NCBI GenBank assembly: GCA_031289655.1
Contig: JAITPC010000033.1
Location: 1 to 60,088 of the forward strand
DNA: 60,088 nt
From: Mycoplasmataceae bacterium
GTDB lineage: Bacteria > Bacillota_I > Bacilli_A > Mycoplasmatales > Mycoplasmoidaceae
Reading direction: 5' to 3'
Of the stretch, positions 18,974-43,958 are shown one piece after another. A program made the position numbers and the translations under genes. The notes below the pieces were generated by a model that searched no databases, was not told the DNA's origin, and saw nothing but the letters and a program-made list of their open reading frames with translations. The number at the start of each line of letters is the position of its first letter. Position 1 is the first letter of the stretch.

Positions 18974-19798
18974 ATGGAAGATGCAATAAATTATCTTAAA
19001 AGAACTCAATTTAATCCATCAAAAAAAATGGGTCAAAATTTTTTGATTAACAAAGAAGTTTATACATCGATGGTTAATAAAATTGATTTTAGTAAATATG
19101 ATTTAGTTTTGGAAATTGGTCCTGGATTAGGCGCATTAACTGATATTTTAATTCAAAAAACTAAAAAAATCATTGTCATCGAAATTGATAAAAGACTTAG
19201 TGAGTATATTGCAGAGCGTTATAAGCAATATGATGCTAAAAAATTTGAGCTATTAAATATTGACGCGTTAAAAACAAATTTTAATGAATTAGCAAAGGAA
19301 TATAAAAACACAGTAATTGTTTCTAATCTGCCATATTCTATTAGTTCTATTGTTGTAATAAAGTTTATAAAATCAGAAATCAAAAATATGTATTGTATGT
19401 TACAAAAAGAAATGGTTGAAAGAATGATGGCTATTCCCAGGACAAAGCAATATAACGCCTTTACCGTTTTATTAAATACATATTGTAAAATAAAAAAACT
19501 AGTTGATATTAGTAGAAGTAGTTTTTATCCAGTTCCTGAAGTGGATTCTACCTTTATTAGTATCAGCAAAAATAATAAATCCTATGATGAAAATTATGAT
19601 AAATTTATTAGAATGTGTTTCAATAGCAAAAGAAGAACTCTATTAAATAATTTAAAAAATATTATTGATAAAAATACCTTATCATTATATTTAAAAAAAA
19701 ATAAAATCAGTGGAAATGCAAGGGCTGAAGAATTAACTTATTTAGGTTTTATAAGTTTATATAATTTTTATATTAAAAATAATGGTAAAAAAAATTAA
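18974..19798 (+). CDS. rsmA: 16S rRNA dimethyladenosine transferase
   Basis: The 274-residue protein opens with the RsmA/KsgA hallmark KKMGQNFLI, then has the SAM-binding LVLEIGPGLGALT, the acidic IVIEIDKRL and the catalytic NLPYSISS motif. It dimethylates A1518 and A1519 (E. coli numbering) in helix 45 of 16S rRNA late in 30S maturation. Its 3' end overlaps nfu by 17 bases. Confidence 0.96.
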   Translation: MEDAINYLKRTQFNPSKKMGQNFLINKEVYTSMVNKIDFSKYDLVLEIGPGLGALTDILIQKTKKIIVIEIDKRLSEYIAERYKQYDAKKFELLNIDALKTNFNELAKEYKNTVIVSNLPYSISSIVVIKFIKSEIKNMYCMLQKEMVERMMAIPRTKQYNAFTVLLNTYCKIKKLVDISRSSFYPVPEVDSTFISISKNNKSYDENYDKFIRMCFNSKRRTLLNNLKNIIDKNTLSLYLKKNKISGNARAEELTYLGFISLYNFYIKNNGKKN

Positions 19799-20012
19799 AT
19801 CAGTTATTGCTAAATTAAAAATGTATATTCAAAATGATGGCGGTGATATGGAATTTGATAGTTATGACAGGAAAACAAAGACTTTGATCATTAAAGTTAA
19901 AGGTGCCTGTGTTGGTTGTTCATTTTTTGATCAAACATTTGATTATGGAATGAAGGAAAGCGTTATGTTGGAACTGCCTGAAATAAAAAATGTTGTGTTT
20001 GTTACAAAATAA
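19782..20012 (+). CDS. NifU-type Fe-S scaffold (Nfu domain only)
   Basis: At 76 residues this is a bare NifU C-terminal domain. It has YIQNDGGDMEFDSY and the cluster-ligating Cys pair in KGACVGCSFF, the standard C-x2-C of Nfu proteins. It could carry or transfer [4Fe-4S] clusters to clients such as MiaB. It overlaps the end of rsmA, so it is translated from the same message. Together with the desulfurase at 25.9 kb, SufC and a mini SufB/D at 34.5 kb it forms the Fe-S assembly gene set seen here. Confidence 0.9.
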   Translation: MVKKIKSVIAKLKMYIQNDGGDMEFDSYDRKTKTLIIKVKGACVGCSFFDQTFDYGMKESVMLELPEIKNVVFVTK

Positions 20013-20042: not shown

Positions 20043-21710
20043 ATGACAAAATTACCACAAAATTTTATTGAAAAAATAAAATTATTACTTTCAAAAGTAA
20101 TTAATACAAATAAGTATTTTATTAATCTAACAGGAATTGATATTAATACTTATAGTGTTGATTTGGAAAAAAATAAAAATATTAATTTTGGAGATTTTGC
20201 CACTAAATTTTTATTACAACATAATTTAACTGAAAAACAGATAGATAAATATTCGAAAATTTATATAAAAAAATTAAATAAAAAAACAAAATATTTTTCT
20301 AAGGTAGAATTCATAAAACCCGGATTTATAAATTTAACATTAAATACTGATTTTTTGAATTCCTCATTAAAAGATACAATTGTTAAAAAAAATGATTTTG
20401 GTAAAAGAAAGAAAAATAACTTGTTTTTTAATTTGGAATTTGTTTCGGCCAATCCCACTGGTTTAATGCACCTTGGTCATGCGAGAAATGCTGCTTATGG
20501 AGATACATTAGTTAACATATGAAAAACTTGTGGTATTGCTGTCAATAAGGAATATTATATTAACGATGCTGGCAATCAAATTGATAATTTAGGTCAAGCT
20601 GTTTTTATTAGATATCAACAAGAATTTGGCAAGAGTGTGGAATTGCCCGAGGATTCATACCATGGGGCTGAAATTATTGATGTTGCAAAAAAAATAAAAG
20701 AGGAATATGGAGACAAATATTTAAATAAAAAAGAAATGGATAAAGAGACTAAAACATTTTTTAATGATTTTTCATTAAAATATATGTTGAATATCATTAA
20801 ACAAGATCTAAAAACTTTTGGTGTGGAAATGGACATTTGATCTAGCGAAAGAGATGTTTATAAATTTATCCCAAATATTTTAGAAAGATTAAAAACATAT
20901 ATTTATAAACAGGATGATGCCACTTTTTTAAGGACCACAGATTTTAAAGACGATAAAGATAGGGTATTGATTAAATCAGATGGCTCCTATACTTATTTTA
21001 CGCCAGATATCGCGTATACTGATATTAAAATGTCAAGAGGATATAATAAAATATTTATGATTTTGGGTTCAGATCATAATTCATACGTTGCTCGTCTTAA
21101 AATAGCAGCAGAAATGTTAGGTTATAATCCTGATAAATTTCATATATTTTTACAACAGATAATTAAATTAACAAAAAATGGTGCAGAATTTAAAATGTCG
21201 AAACGTTCTGGAAATTCATTAACAATCCAAGATATGCTTGAAACTATTGGCAAAGATGCCTCACGTTGGTTTTTAGTTTCAACAACACTTGACACACATT
21301 TAAATATAGATGTTGATAAAGTTACTTCAAAAAATAATGACAACCCAGTCTATTATGTTCAATACGCTCATGCCAGAATTTCTCAATTGCTAGAAAAAAA
21401 TAAGGTAACGTGCATCATTGTCAAAAAATATGATTTATTAATTAAACCAGAGGAAAGAGAATTGATTATGCAAATTGCTTTGTATCCACATGTGATTAGG
21501 AATGTTTCTGTTAATTATGAAGTACACAAATTATGTAATTATTTATATCAACTAGCAAGGTTATATCATAATTATTATTCTAATCATAAAGTTAATGATG
21601 CATCAAATCAACAACTATCAAATCAAAGATATACACTTTCATTTTGTGTTAAACAAGTTATCAATAATGGCTTGAGAATATTAGGAATTGAACCTTGTGA
21701 AAAAATGTAA
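20043..21710 (+). CDS. argS: Arginyl-tRNA synthetase
   Basis: The 555-residue class I synthetase has the HIGH motif in SANPTGLMHLGHARNAAYGD, the KMSK-type segment FKMSKRSGNS, SDGSYTYFTPDIAY, and a C-terminal DALR anticodon-binding helix region (YYVQYAHARIS and beyond). Two TGA codons are read as Trp. It charges tRNA-Arg. The tsaD start lies inside its last codons. Confidence 0.97.
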
Positions 21711-22653
21711 TGATAATTTTATTTTAGCTATTGAGACATCTTGTGATGATACCTCCATAGCATTATTTAAAAATAATGAATTGTTATCTTTGAGTGAGTC
21801 TACTTCCATTAAAGAATATCAAAAATATGGTGGAATCATACCTGAAATTGCATCAAGAAAACATGAAGAATGCATTAACGAAGTATATTTAAAATGTTTG
21901 AGTAATAGTAAAATAGAGCAAAAAGATATCAATTATATAGCTTATACTGCTTTTCCCGGATTACCTGGGAGTTTACATGTTGGTAAAATTTTTGCAAAAA
22001 CGCTCTCATTCTTATTGAAAACAAAACTAATTCCTGTCGATCACATGATGGGGCATGCTTTTAGCTTTGCTATTGAGAATCCTTTGTTGGTAAAATTTCC
22101 ACTATTGAGTTTAGTAGTTAGCGGGGGTAACACGATCCTATATTTATTTTCCTCACTAACAAAATATGTGATAGTTAATCAAACTGTTGATGATCCACTT
22201 GGCGAATGTTTAGATAAAATTGGCAGAATGATTGGTCTTGGCTATCCTGGGGGAGTTAGTCTTGATAAAAACTATGATGAAAGTAAATCTAATTTACAAT
22301 TAATAAAACATCTTGACGCATCCAAACCATTTAGTTTTAGTGGAATTAAAAGTTTTGCACATAATTATGTCAACACTCACAAACAGAAGAATAAAAAAAT
22401 AGATAATGTGCTAGTTGGCAGTTCGTGTTTAAAATGATGTATTGAAGATATCATTATTAAGTTACAATATTATATTAATATGCACAATGTCAAAACAATT
22501 GGAATTGGTGGTGGGGTTGCTGCTAATGCATTATTGCAGCATAAAATAAAAAACATTGCTGGTGCAAATGTTTACATAACTTCAAGAAAATATTGTGGCG
22601 ATAATGCTGCAATGATAGGCTTTTATGTTTCATTGTTACTTCAAAAATCATAA
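21697..22653 (+). CDS. tsaD: tRNA threonylcarbamoyladenosine transferase TsaD
   Basis: The 318-residue protein begins with the ASKHA-fold ILAIETSCDDTSIAL and carries the metal-binding HMMGHAFS, the LVVSGGNT loop and the C-terminal DNAAMIGFY. TsaD makes t6A37 in ANN-decoding tRNAs, normally with TsaB and TsaE. GTG 21697 is preferred: it gives MKKCNDNFILAIET; a TTG at 21688 is in the same frame. It overlaps argS by 14 bases. Its last 30 or so bases were copied to a second locus at 42973 together with the lipoprotein promoter. Confidence 0.95.
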
Positions 22654-22724
22654 ATCATAAATCATATTTATGGTAAAAATTCTTTTTTAATTTACACCAC
22701 AAATCCTCCCCCATTGTTTATAAT
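22616..22724 (+). repeat. Copy A of the tsaD-tail/lipoprotein promoter cassette
   Basis: From TAGGC at 22616, inside the tsaD 3' end, through the -10 box at 22724 this segment matches 42973-43075 nearly base for base, apart from small indels and the variable C tract. Similarity continues into the signal-peptide codons of both lipoproteins. Confidence 0.85.
22705..22724 (+). promoter_or_regulatory. C-rich tract and -10 box of lipoprotein A
   Basis: CCTCCCCC at 22705-22712 lies just upstream of TATAAT at 22719-22724. The -10 box ends 6 bases before the ATG. The tract sits between an upstream TTTACA (22691-22696) and the -10 box; in locus B the same position is a pure C10 run, so tract length would change the spacing. 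Confidence 0.55.
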
Positions 22725-22730
22725 GTTGAT

Positions 22731-23477
22731 ATGAAGTTAAATACAAAAATCGGATTCAGTTTATTAGGAGTTGCCTTAATTGGGGGGGGTATTGCTCTTT
22801 CAACAAGTTTAACTAGTTGTTCTAATAAAGTTGATGCATATACTCTAAAATTTGCTAGTACAGAACACAATGGAGTAACTAATGCTAATGAAGTTTATAC
22901 ATCCTTTCTTGCTTTTATCACTAATGTTCCTGCAGATTTTGCGGTTAATGGTGTAAGCGGTGATTTTGCTGTTAATGGAAATAACCCTTTTGACTTGGAA
23001 ATAACAAAACAGTTCAATGATCGTATGCATAGTAGAGCTTTTGCTTATATGCATGCTACATCTGCATATTTGATGCTAGCAGCAGTTGGCGGAACTTTTT
23101 CCTTTACTGAATTTCATTATGAAATGACAGTCACTGAAAAGAATGATCTTTTTAATGTTGATATGCTAGTTCAGTTTGAAGGCACAATCACAGGTGGACC
23201 TAGTGCTGGGACGGATAAGTATGTTACTTTATATAGCCACTACAGTAATGTTCAACTTCTTAGTTTTCATCAGACTGCTGGTTATGGAACACCATTTGAT
23301 TTTGAATATATTGGTCAAAACGATCATGCTTGTTCAACTTATGCGGATTACAATCTTGATTCATCTACCTTTCCTTTTGCTAAGGGAGGCACATATGCCA
23401 TGAACACTGGTTCATATGTTTTAGCTACTCAAATATCTGCTTTATTTCCTAATGTAATATTCTCTTACGTTTCATAA
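22731..23477 (+). CDS. Surface lipoprotein A, in-frame poly-G in signal peptide
   Basis: The 248-residue precursor starts MKLNTKIGFSLLGVALIGGG and ends its signal peptide with the lipobox LTSC, so it should be exported and lipid-anchored at Cys30 or so. A run of 8 G at 22782-22789 encodes the GGG before the lipobox and is in frame. The mature part (residues 31-248) is rich in aromatic and small polar residues and matches no family I recognise. Its signal peptide is nearly identical to that of lipoprotein B at 43.1 kb, although the mature domains are unrelated. Expression may vary through the G tract and the promoter C tract. Confidence 0.85.
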   Translation: MKLNTKIGFSLLGVALIGGGIALSTSLTSCSNKVDAYTLKFASTEHNGVTNANEVYTSFLAFITNVPADFAVNGVSGDFAVNGNNPFDLEITKQFNDRMHSRAFAYMHATSAYLMLAAVGGTFSFTEFHYEMTVTEKNDLFNVDMLVQFEGTITGGPSAGTDKYVTLYSHYSNVQLLSFHQTAGYGTPFDFEYIGQNDHACSTYADYNLDSSTFPFAKGGTYAMNTGSYVLATQISALFPNVIFSYVS

Positions 23478-25877: not shown

Positions 25878-27098
25878 TTATAGTATATTCTTGAATTGTT
25901 TTTTTTGATCAAAATTTTTGAGTACAGTTACTAATCTATCAACATCTTTTTTATCATTATATAAATAAAAGCTAGCACGAACATACCCATTGGGATTGTT
26001 AGAAAACATACCTTGCATTTTAACGCAAGCCATCCCTCCACGTACAATAATTTTATTTGTGCCCAAATAGTTGGCCAAATCTTGTGGATTAACACCTTTG
26101 ATATTAAAAGAAACAATCGGATAAATATTATCCTTGGTAACGTATTCAATGTTTTTGATGTGTTTAAATTGTTGATCTATATATTTTTTTAATTCAATTT
26201 CATGATTATTGATATTATTCATTCCAATTTTTTTCAAAAAATCAATTGCAGCCCCAAATCCTAATATAGCCTCTGTGTTTGGCGTTCCTGCTTCAAATCG
26301 CTCTGGCGGTGGGGCTAAATTGATTTTACCATTGTTTTCAACTGTCGAAACCATGCCACCGCCATATGTATTTGGCTCCATTTTAATTAAATGCTTATAT
26401 TTTCCATACATTATTCCAATTCCACTTGGACCGCACATTTTATGTGCAGAACAAACAAAAAAATCAACATCATTATTTCTCGCATCAAATTTAGTGTGTG
26501 GCACAGATTGTGTTGCATCAACAATAACAATTATGTTTTTATTTATTTTTCTTGCATGTTTAACTATGTTTTTTACATCAATTTGATAATCAAACAAATT
26601 ACTTGCGTTGCTAAAACTAATAACTTTTGTTTTTTTTGTAATGGCATTAATGAAAGCAGTTTCACTTGGTTTATTATTCTTATCTTTTGCAAAAACAAGT
26701 TTAATTTTCTTGTTATTTCTTGCATTTAATCATGGTAATAAATTACTAGAGTGTTCTCCATAGCTAACAACCACTTCATCATCCTGTTTCAATCATTTAA
26801 TAACATTTGACTGAATTAGATTTAAGCCATCTGTTGCTCCTGAGGTAAAAACAATTTCATTTTGCTCCACATTAAAAAAATTAGAAATATTAGATCTTAC
26901 TTTTTTAATGTCCTGATTCACTTTACTAGCTATTGATGAATCATTGTTATGCGGGTTTGTGCTATATTTTGTGTAATACTCCTCTATTTTTTTGATAACA
27001 GCTATTGGTTTTAAACTAGTTGCTGCTGAATCCAAATAGATTCAATTATTATTATTTTTAAACCAGGGGAAGTATTTCTTTAAATTATTTTTTAACAT
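25878..27098 (-). CDS. Cysteine desulfurase (SufS-like)
   Basis: The 406-residue PLP enzyme has WIYLDSAATSLKP at the N-terminus, VFTSGATDGLN, DATQSVPHTKFD, the PLP lysine in SAHKMCGPSGIG, and the catalytic Cys in VRGGMACVKM. The order and length match the SufS/CsdA group. It releases sulfur from cysteine as a persulfide for Fe-S clusters and tRNA thiolation. ATG 27098 is the only start that keeps the complete N-terminus; it overlaps pheT by 14 bases, so the two are probably co-transcribed. No SufU is visible next to it. Confidence 0.93.
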
Positions 27099-29436
27099 CA
27101 AAACTATTCATTTTAAAAATATTGATGATTGTGTTTAGGAAAGTATCAATTTGATTCGTTGTTAGGCCTTCTGAATTTTTAATATAAAATCTTATTGTAT
27201 ATGAAACATCTACATTATGTTCATATTTATCGATAAATTCAACATTATCAATGAATTCTAATGACTTTATTTTTTCAATAGTACTTTGTAAATATGAATC
27301 TTTTTTTGAAATAAATGCTATGTCCTTAATTATTGGCATTAATGCCGAAATATGAGATAATTGCACAGTTTTATTCTTGAAATTAGTAAACAAATCATCT
27401 CAATTGATTGTTGCTGCGTAAATTTTTTCATTGATATTGTAATTTTTTAATAATGATTTTTTGATTAAACCAATATATCCAATAATTTTATTTTCATATA
27501 TTATTGAAATACATTCATTGTCATAAAAATATTGATTACTCTCAACTTTATATGATACCTTTGCGTTGAAAATTGAGACAATTTGATTAATAATTCCTTT
27601 TAATCCATTGACATTATAAACAATTCTAGAATTATTAATTTTATCTAAATAAATATTTTCAGGTGTAAGCAATGTTATATTTTTAATACCTATTCTATGT
27701 TTTTGATATATTTTTTGTATTTCAAAAATTGGTTTGATTGAATTTTTGTATGATATGTTGTATGACATGATATTCAATAATGAGTGAACCAAGTTATTTC
27801 TTAAATTTTGTCTATTAGCATTACTAGAAACGATATTAACATTATCATGATAATTAAAAATATTAAATTTATCTAAATCACTTTTATTGATGGTATTATA
27901 AGTTTTTGCTTCATTAAAATAATTGCTTAATAATATATCTCACATTTTTTTTATAAAATAATACTCTGTGTGTTTGTTGATGGTTGAATAGGAATTTTTA
28001 ATTGGTTCCTCATTAATTTTATTGATATCAAAGGATTTGATGATTTCCTCACTTATATCTGCAATGGAAGTAACATCTGTTCGATATAATGGTGGAGTAA
28101 CAGATTTTGTTTGTGCATTGTATCCAAACCCCAGTTTTTGCAAATGTTCAATAATTTCATTCATTTTGAAATTACTCCCAATAATTTCATTTATTTTTTT
28201 CGAATTTATTTTAATATTTTTTTTCTTTTCAATCTCTACATCAAGTTTATAACCAATCAAATTTTTTGCAAAATATTTTTGCAATAATGATGCCGCCAAT
28301 AAGATTTCATAATTTGTATTTATATGAATATTTCTTCTAACAGCATCTGTGTGAATGTCATATTTATTAGCACTGTTTCTAAGATTAACGAAATTAAAAT
28401 TAGCAAATTCAATGTAGACATCCTTGCTATTTTTATTAGTTCCAAAGTTTTTGGCACCTAATATTCCTGCGATTGAGATAATATTATTATTTGTTTTAAC
28501 GACTATATCTTTTCCATCTAGTTTATATTCTTTTCCATCAAAACCACTAAAATTTTCATTTTTATTGGCAAAATTTACTTCGATATCACTGATGTTTGAT
28601 GCATCATAGGCAGCAGACGGAATGTTAGTTAATAAAGTGATAATATTCAATGTATCAAGCAAATTATTCAGTGGTTTAATACCATTATTCATTAAGAGCG
28701 ATTTAATTTTTCATTCACTTGGTTGAATCCTAATGTTTTCTAGTTTAGCGAGTGCAAAACTACTACATGCCTTCTTATTGATACTCATTTCATTTTTTAA
28801 ATTTATTAATTTTTCAGAAATATTAGGATTCGGATATACAAATTTAAAATCAAAAAATGCTGATAAATCTTGGCAAAAACTCAAAACACCATTAATATCA
28901 TTTCTATTAGCGAAGGGAACCTCAATTTCATAAATAGTATCATCAAGTCCTAAAAATTCGCTAACGTTTGTATCGCCGATAATTCCATCATCAAACAACA
29001 TGATCCCATCGGCATCGTCTTTATTGATAACATTTGCATTAAGAGGTGTCAATTCCTTATAACTACATAACATGCCCTCAGATTTTATACCCCTTAATTC
29101 TTTATATTCAATTATTCTCCCATCATATAGTTTAGCTCCATTTAATGCGACAACCACATTTTTATTAGCAACCAAATTATTTGCTCCACAAACAATGGTA
29201 TTGATTGTACCGTTTTTGTCAGTTTGTACCTTGCAAACATTTAAATGATCAGAATTTGGGTGTTTTTGAAATGAAATTAGACGTCCGATGACCAAGTCAT
29301 TTAATTTTGGATGATGAAAAATGTCCTTTACAGGTAATTCATTGCCTGTGCTTCCAACAGCATTAGATAATTCTATATCTGAAATGTTCTTAAGACCCGG
29401 CAAAAACTGCTCAAGTAGTTTTCTTGAATAAATCAT
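27085..29436 (-). CDS. pheT: Phenylalanyl-tRNA synthetase beta chain
   Basis: The 783-residue protein starts MIYSRKLLEQFLPG, has the N-terminal tRNA-binding domain (FQKHPNSDHLNVCKVQTD, VCGANNL), a B3/B4 editing region, B5 and a C-terminal ferredoxin-fold anticodon-binding domain near LSHISALMPIIKDIAFI. Three internal TGA codons are Trp. It forms the alpha2-beta2 synthetase with PheS. pheS is not directly upstream: a rubrerythrin gene is, so the usual pheST pair appears to be split. Confidence 0.95.
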
Positions 29437-29461: not shown

Positions 29462-30037
29462 TTAATCACAAATTTTAATTGTTTTACGAACAAAATATCC
29501 TTGCGGGTGGGAACAAACAGGACACAAAAATGGAGCAGTCTTGCTTTTAACAAATGATCCACAATTCATACACCATCAATATACTTCCTTTGTGTCAACA
29601 AAAGTTTTTTTATCCTTAATTTCTTTTAATAAGGCTAAATATCTACTTTCATGAAATTTTTCCACTTCGCCAACACCCTTAAACAATCTAGCTATATTAG
29701 TATACCCTTCTTTTTCAGCAGTTTTTGCAAAATTAGCATACATTGTGCTTCATTCATATTTTTCATTTTTAATAGCTTCTAATAGATCTTGAGTTGTTGG
29801 CGGAACGGAGCTATCATGAATTAATTTAAATCATATTTCGGCATGTTCTTTTTCATTGTCGCTACTTTCAGTAAAAACATTAGAAACATGAACATATCCA
29901 TCTTTTTTAGCTTGTGAACTAAAGAATTGGTATCTAACTCGAGCAGCAGACTCACCCTCAAATGCAGTCATTAAATTTTTATATGTTTGTGAATTTTTAT
30001 CAAGTTTCTTTATTGTTTTTGTGTTATTTGTTTTCAT
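29462..30037 (-). CDS. Rubrerythrin
   Basis: The 191-residue protein has a ferritin-like diiron domain with [15 protein letters not shown], the E-x2-H of NEKEHAEIW and of [10 protein letters not shown], then a rubredoxin-like tail with the two Cys pairs CMNCG and CPVCS. This is the classic rubrerythrin layout. It reduces hydrogen peroxide in anaerobic or microaerophilic bacteria. Trp codons are TGA (two adjacent before the first Cys pair), so the gene uses the host code and is not a recent import from a standard-code donor. Rubrerythrin is not part of the familiar mycoplasma gene set. Confidence 0.93.
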
Positions 30038-42972: not shown

Positions 42973-43075
42973 TAGGCTTTTATGTTTCATTGTTACTTCA
43001 AAATCATAAATAATATTTATGGTAAAAATTCTTTTTTAATTTACACCACAAATCCCCCCCCCCGGTGTATATAAT
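42973..43075 (+). repeat. Copy B of the tsaD-tail/lipoprotein promoter cassette
   Basis: This segment repeats 22616-22724, including about 30 bases that at 22.6 kb are the 3' end of tsaD. Here no tsaD is present, so this is the copied end. One A is missing in the tsaD-derived part. Confidence 0.85.
43054..43075 (+). promoter_or_regulatory. Poly-C tract and -10 box of lipoprotein B
   Basis: A run of 10 C at 43054-43063 lies 6 bases before TATAAT (43070-43075), which ends 6 bases before the ATG. The tract lies between an upstream TTTACA (43040-43045) and the -10 box, so slippage would alter promoter spacing. Confidence 0.6.
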
Positions 43076-43081
43076 CTAGTT

Positions 43082-43958
43082 ATGAATAAAACAAAAATTG
43101 GATTTAGTTTATTAGGAATCGCTCTAATTGGGGGGTATTGGTCTCTTAACAAGTTTAGTTGGTTGCAGTAAACCAACTCAAAAAATAAAGAGCTTTTTAA
43201 CATTTACAAATGGTAAAACCCAAAATATTGAAACAATTGAAGATTTTAATAAATTAGGAAGTAATGACGATGAAAACACTGTAATAACATTATCAAATGG
43301 TTCATTTGTTAAAAATACAGTATTGGGTTTTGATTTTGGTGATAATCCTTTTGAAATAACCCAGACTCCTGCTTTTTTTCTGTACAATTATACATCTTTA
43401 AACACTGGATTAATTTTACCAAATAATATCCTTACTATTGGATTTGGTTTTTTAAGTGGTTGCGCTTCTTTTAATGCTGATGTAACATTACCCAGCTCTC
43501 TAAAATTTATTGATGACAATTTTTTGTCTTCTTGTTCTTCATATAATCGAGAAATTATGATACCAAAATCTGTGATTTCTATTGGGGATAATTTTATGGG
43601 TAATTGTGCGTCTTTTAATGGCACAGTATATTTTGGTCATGGTGGAGATTCTGAATTAGAAAGTATTGGTGAACGTTTTTTAAATGATTGCCCTTCTTAT
43701 AATCAAATGTTTTCTCTTCCTAATTCAATAACTGAAATTGGAACTTTTTTTATGTGGAATTGTTATGCTTTTGTTTCTCCGCTTGATATAAAAAATTTAA
43801 ATGCTACCATTTTCCAAGCTTCAGCTAATTCATTTGCTGTTTCTGATTCCGCCGCCGCTGTTTATACAACCGGATTCTCTATAGGAGGAACTTATAAAAA
43901 CGAAATTAAAGCAAAATTTGCTGATAACGCCTCAGAACCTTATAGAAAAATCATATAA
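43082..43958 (+). CDS. BspA-like leucine-rich repeat lipoprotein B, out of frame at poly-G
   Basis: From ATG 43082 the signal peptide reads MNKTKIGFSLLGIALIGG, then the G run at 43130-43135 (6 G) throws translation into a frame that stops at TAA about 12 codons on. With 8 or 5 G the frame continues into LLTSLVGCSK, a proper lipobox, and a 270-residue mature protein. That part holds about five LRR_5/BspA-type units of about 24 residues, for example ISIGDNFMGNCASFN and LESIGERFLNDCPSYN. It is probably a surface adhesin-like lipoprotein in the OFF state. The signal peptide matches lipoprotein A. Confidence 0.85.

Follow-up and report, generated by a model that had tools for sequence, protein, structure and literature searches.

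Slipped-strand phase variation is already known, and the porA gene combines a tract in its promoter with one in its coding region. In Mycoplasma hyorhinis, a poly-A tract lies in the promoter of every vlp lipoprotein gene, and in M. mycoides a dinucleotide repeat lies in the promoter spacer of Vmm (both described in PMC10502178). Poly-A frameshifts near the 5' end of the coding sequence occur in M. fermentans P78 and M. hominis Vaa (PMC2831843), and the genes for BspA-like proteins of Ca. Mycoplasma girerdii contain dinucleotide repeats with length variants in metagenome reads (PMC5476646). The promoter of Neisseria meningitidis opc contains a poly-cytidine tract (Sarkari 1994, as cited in PMC2686086), and 'multiple mechanisms' are attributed to porA (van der Ende 2000, as cited in PMC7371114). 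The dual-tract modular form described below appears to be new: in the open-licence papers searched, no copied module carrying the two tracts together is described.

The window analysed is a stretch of 60,088 nucleotides from a Mycoplasmataceae bacterium. A sequence-only reading had singled out two lipoprotein loci, A and B, and proposed that slippage at a G run in their signal peptides gives ON/OFF variation. Both loci are real (Table 1); overlooked were 21 more copies in the genome and a C10 tract in the promoter of locus B. Genetic code 4 (TGA = Trp) was used in the window: tsaD (21688-22653), whose end at 22653 lies beside locus A, is open only that way, and this code leaves the readings of locus A and locus B unaltered. 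Rubrerythrin-like (29462-30037), NifU-like (19782-20012) and SufS-like (25878-27101) genes, named by eye, are also present in the window and suggest an anaerobic lifestyle.

Table 1. Features of locus A and locus B in the window
Feature	Coordinates	Strand	Basis
Lipoprotein A, ON, 248 aa, lipobox LTSC	22731..23477	+	translation
In-frame G8 tract, locus A signal peptide	22782..22789	+	direct reading
Interrupted CCTCCCCC within the 15-bp promoter spacer of locus A	22705..22712	+	direct reading
TATAAT of locus A	22719..22724	+	direct reading
5' flank of locus B, copy of locus A flank 22616-22704 including last tsaD codons	42973..43053	+	alignment
Conserved CACCACAAAT box, -35-like, locus B	43044..43053	+	in most of 34 genome poly-C promoters
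C10 tract, locus B promoter spacer	43054..43063	+	direct reading
TATAAT -10 box of locus B	43070..43075	+	direct reading
Locus B frame as assembled (start, signal peptide, G6, stop; OFF)	43082..43171	+	translation
G6 tract, locus B signal peptide	43130..43135	+	direct reading
Lipobox LVGC of locus B, downstream frame	43155..43166	+	translation
Mature lipoprotein B, BspA-type LRR (PF13306), frame open though OFF	43164..43958	+	Pfam LRR_5 E=1.7e-10

At locus A, the frame runs from the ATG at 22731 through the G8 tract to LTSC, as had been claimed. The body of lipoprotein A gave no match in a Pfam search. At locus B, translation starts at the ATG at 43082, the N-terminus up to the G6 tract being MNKTKIGFSLLGIALIGG; the start frame translates as MNKTKIGFSLLGIALIGGYWSLNKFSWLQ and closes at a TAA (43169-43171) after 29 codons, 11 codons past G6. 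Direct reading confirmed the coordinates, the tract lengths and the early stop of the out-of-frame G6 allele. The frame one base downstream reads IGLLTSLVGC (Cys codon at 43164-43166) and remains open as far as 43958, which corresponds to a mature protein of 264 residues. This body passes the LRR_5 (PF13306) gathering score (41.3 bits against a cut-off of 27.7) and is 37% identical over 280 positions to the ON paralogue L007; the prediction of an intact lipobox and a repeat protein in another frame holds. Restoring the locus B frame would need the gain of two G or the loss of one, and here too the earlier arithmetic was correct on re-reading.

By itself, the G6 tract is not improbable, as 1.05 runs of at least six G are expected per window; its significance arises because 22 paralogous positions carry the tract. 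Among the 23 copies it is the shortest uninterrupted one. A tract length of 7-8 is usually taken as the hypermutable threshold. A G7 tract in Neisseria switches at <1e-5 (PMC5953494), and surveys set the limit at seven or more, as for the 29 poly-G/C loci of that length in C. jejuni (PMC4965091). Locus B may be a slow or nearly locked OFF allele, G6 being short.

The genome searched is a MAG of 572 kb in 43 contigs, 85% complete, in which tract lengths are consensus values; reading covered the stretches around the tracts. The promoter and signal peptide of locus B matched some 20 further copies, and 23 signal-peptide copies were tabulated, 14 ON and 9 OFF by tract length. Their poly-G tracts range from an interrupted G5 to the G11 of L014, which is ON. 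A signal peptide with a lipobox ending in Cys is present in 23/23 copies (the N-terminus of L027 and L043 being different or cut), with the features of Lgt/Lsp substrates: a basic n-region, a hydrophobic stretch and the lipobox Cys. In all nine OFF genes, the lipobox frame is open for 103-273 codons past the tract (in L016 for 103 codons, then the contig ends) and the other two frames close within 11; the OFF copies fall in both wrong frames. ON copies exceed the one third expected under random tract length (14/23, p=0.006). Selection for ON would explain this excess, with tract length not freely drifting. The OFF/OFF pair L015-L020 has a dN of 0.27 and a dS of 0.93; in OFF/OFF pairs dN is below dS, which indicates past coding constraint on the OFF bodies and agrees more readily with reversible switching than with decay.

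The 572 kb contain 80 runs of at least seven G or C, compared with about 3 expected when the first-order Markov rate of the window (0.34 per 60 kb) is scaled up. Compared among paralogues, the family displays the traits of contingency loci: tracts at sites where a change in length would alter expression, tracts far longer than chance, both ON and OFF states, and preserved OFF frames. Elsewhere in the genome, three genes, named by eye from their translations, carry long G runs: an HsdS-like gene has a G8 in its middle (L137, 1079-1086), a probable DNA methyltransferase gene a G9 close to its start (L148, 1015-1023) and a protein kinase gene a G8 at its glycine loop (L162, 1824-1831).

As in most copies, a promoter poly-C lies 66 bp upstream of the poly-G at locus B. 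A C7-C12 run just upstream of TATAAT is present in 17/23 copies, in most behind a conserved CACCACAAA box; of the other six, two have an interrupted C run, three an unrelated promoter (L019, L021, L027) and one lies at a contig edge. The dual-tract arrangement is thus not universal in the family, and with the C run of locus A broken (CCTCCCCC), locus A and locus B seem to have one and two live tracts, respectively. Genome-wide, the pattern of C8, 4-12 bases and TATAAT occurs in 43 windows and the reversed pattern in 0. Across 34 poly-C promoters of this genome, box and TATAAT are mostly separated by 16-17 bp, with shorter flanks accompanying longer C runs (r=-0.39, permutation p=0.011, a value that is optimistic for related sequences). 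The CACCACAAA box differs from a canonical -35; the position of the C tract and the 16-17 bp spacers would fit a Vlp-type promoter switch. Slippage in the C tract would change promoter spacing and so should tune or switch transcription. In the family alignment, the ATG begins at the seventh base after TATAAT and the 6-nt gap is constant in poly-C members; as this is the position expected for the transcription start, the mRNA of the poly-C copies is probably leaderless and the C tract untranscribed. The same type of poly-C promoter was also seen 40 bp upstream of a ribosomal protein L27 gene (L164, 5835-5843; C16:13434), which would be an unexpected gene to phase-switch. Members of a second membrane-protein family (NNVLTxKEHKVWNRRK...GIGGG; L165, L167, L157, L132) have either this poly-C promoter or a transmembrane leader that contains a poly-G.

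The 5' ends of the copies are far more alike than their bodies. Signal-peptide DNA has a median identity of 93.8% (190 pairs), and homology among copies starts about 10 bases before the C tract and stops at the lipobox. Locus B and L007 have 0/48 differences before the G tract and a dS of 1.15 between their bodies. The bodies comprise BspA-type LRR proteins (locus B, L007 and L018, the latter two with LRR_5 scores of 50.7 and 27.9 bits against the cut-off of 27.7), a small 'DLCDLKAGDN' group and others without a Pfam match. For other bodies, matches to FUT8, TL5 and CdiI fell below cut-off and were set aside, and AlphaFold predictions from the single body sequences of A and B (mean pLDDT 42 and 48) were too poor for a structure search. 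With a near-identical 5' unit and differing mature proteins, the unit behaves as an exchangeable 5' module.

Locus B itself may record such an exchange. Upstream of the C tract, 80/81 aligned bases are identical between the flanks of locus B and locus A (98.8%, with one 8-base gap), and identity drops to 84% after it, which makes locus B a mosaic with its junction at the C tract. The simplest reading is that the module has been copied or exchanged between genes; inversion, or recombination between opposed C and G tracts, was dropped as unneeded. It is plausible, though somewhat less likely than not, that a self-contained switch cassette spreads by recombination onto unrelated surface-protein bodies, that its homopolymers double as crossover sites and that recipients become phase variable at two independent levels.

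We compared the family with a genus set of 36 species, including its own genome. Lipoproteins with a poly-G signal peptide are present in 11 congeners (28 genes, G7-G11, 15 ON and 13 OFF), with signal sequences that differ. Within the set, poly-C promoters in number were found only in the own genome and in G006, where three loci (L082, L090, L096) have a poly-C before TATAAT and then a poly-G of 8-9 only about 20 bases after it. No close DNA match to the promoter and signal-peptide module was found in the 35 congeners, so that the module appears to have expanded in its own lineage. Four weak congener matches (E 1e-4 to 6e-4) were read and are not module copies; viral contig DNA scanned for same-species module copies contained none. 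MutS_V was absent from 36/36 genus genomes and present in 11/14 control genomes; a lack of mismatch repair would favour slippage.

Long G runs were also noted in other gene classes. HsdS-like genes of three congeners (L112, L116 and L122 in G015, G022 and G031) have (TA)EL(A/T)-type tandem repeats beside a poly-G and a downstream frame that is OFF as assembled, and probably represent phase-variable type I restriction specificity. In G028 and G030 (L120, L121, L130, L131), a poly-G of 8-9 lies within the HsdM motif AGKSGG(E)FYTPQEV. Nine genes of the type MNKKLISSLLGGG in G044, from another genus (L192-L197), carry G8-G9 tracts and share a single frame offset of +1, for which homopolymer undercalling, an OFF state throughout or a programmed shift are candidate readings.

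Combined, these observations make it very probable that the genes form a slipped-strand contingency family, in which locus B would be one of about 20 independently switching genes whose module was moved by recombination. The module of about 130 bp comprises, in order, the CACCACAAA box, the poly-C, GGTGTA, TATAAT, the start codon placed at the predicted transcription start, the signal peptide with its poly-G, and the lipobox. Replication slippage in the poly-G would shift the frame and turn the lipoprotein ON or OFF, and slippage in the poly-C would alter the spacing of box and TATAAT around 16-17 bp, tuning or switching transcription. The G tract encodes Gly-Gly(-Gly) in the cleaved leader, so that changes by three leave the mature protein unaltered. 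With about 20 independent genes, many coat combinations could arise in a population, near-identical modules having been joined to different surface proteins by recombination. Switching by slippage is strongly supported by comparison, from which we infer switching itself: the claim gained from the 23 paralogues (14 ON, 9 OFF), the intact OFF frames, the similar congeners and the absence of MutS. Two points qualify it: in most copies, the promoter tract would make up the other half of the switch, and locus B may switch rarely. The coat, if these lipoproteins are displayed at the surface, is probably changed through copying errors at both runs; such changes might serve evasion of host or protozoan recognition or of phage, or alter adhesion.

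Other explanations of the OFF copies were weighed. They could, locus B included, be decaying pseudogenes or silent donor cassettes, the tract being a dead frameshift and locus B never being expressed from its own start. The shared modules and the mosaic at locus B do represent recombination between copies, the G6 of locus B is the shortest uninterrupted tract, and that of L020 is interrupted (GGGGGCGTGG) and looks locked. However, nine OFF lipobox frames are intact, OFF/OFF pairs have dN < dS, OFF copies occur in both wrong frames and the same pattern is seen in 11 other species, and we consider decay improbable.

It is also very improbable, in our judgement, that programmed or transcriptional slippage on the G run restores the frame and leaves OFF genes at low constant expression. 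A programmed system would keep one offset, as in the nine poly-G genes of G044, in another genus of the family, which all need the same +1 shift, and slippage of polymerase on homopolymers is known in reduced genomes (Buchnera, as cited in PMC2831843). In the present family, by contrast, the offset varies, 14 genes needing no shift and 9 being OFF in both wrong frames. Least probable of all is that homopolymer assembly or base-calling errors make apparent OFF states. The MAG is fragmented and one contig (C23) starts exactly at the C tract of one copy, but errors cannot create the tracts or the shared module, and the OFF copies are offset both ways. G7-G8 runs in six further genes (mnmA, rpsE, a kinase and others) keep the reading frame in every case, which compared with 9/23 is not a significant difference (Fisher p=0.14).

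If the slipped-strand reading is right, about 23 surface genes in a bacterium that is uncultured and genome-reduced serve a combinatorial switch with two levels, derived from one copied module, and many congeneric species use poly-G in lipoprotein signal peptides. The family would then illustrate clearly how a switch module can spread among genes that are unrelated, with a tract that, lying in the part of the protein that is cut off, can vary in threes without altering the displayed protein. Tracts in two places would offer a natural test of graded plus binary control, and phase variation in a mollicute would be measurable directly from existing metagenome reads.

The proposed system would share with Vlp a surface lipoprotein family with one homopolymer per promoter, independent ON/OFF states and combinatorial coats, a likeness drawn from descriptions; the present promoter tract consists of C, the copies are scattered over the genome, a second poly-G tract lies in the signal peptide and the bodies belong to several unrelated groups. 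Control of surface protein ON/OFF by promoter spacer length would be common to Vmm, where the repeat is a dinucleotide and no coding tract is described. P78 and Vaa likewise switch surface protein translation ON or OFF through an early homopolymer, but are single genes with poly-A and no promoter tract described, in contrast to a multigene family with poly-G. The genes opc and porA would resemble the proposed switch in that a promoter poly-C tunes transcription of a surface protein; they are single outer-membrane protein genes of a Gram-negative organism, whereas a dispersed lipoprotein family here has one copied dual-tract module. Ca. M. girerdii is likewise an uncultured mollicute with phase-variable BspA-type LRR proteins and restriction-modification genes, some majority alleles being OFF; its repeats are mostly dinucleotides in individual genes, whereas in the present genome G/C homopolymers belong to a shared module that also serves non-LRR proteins.
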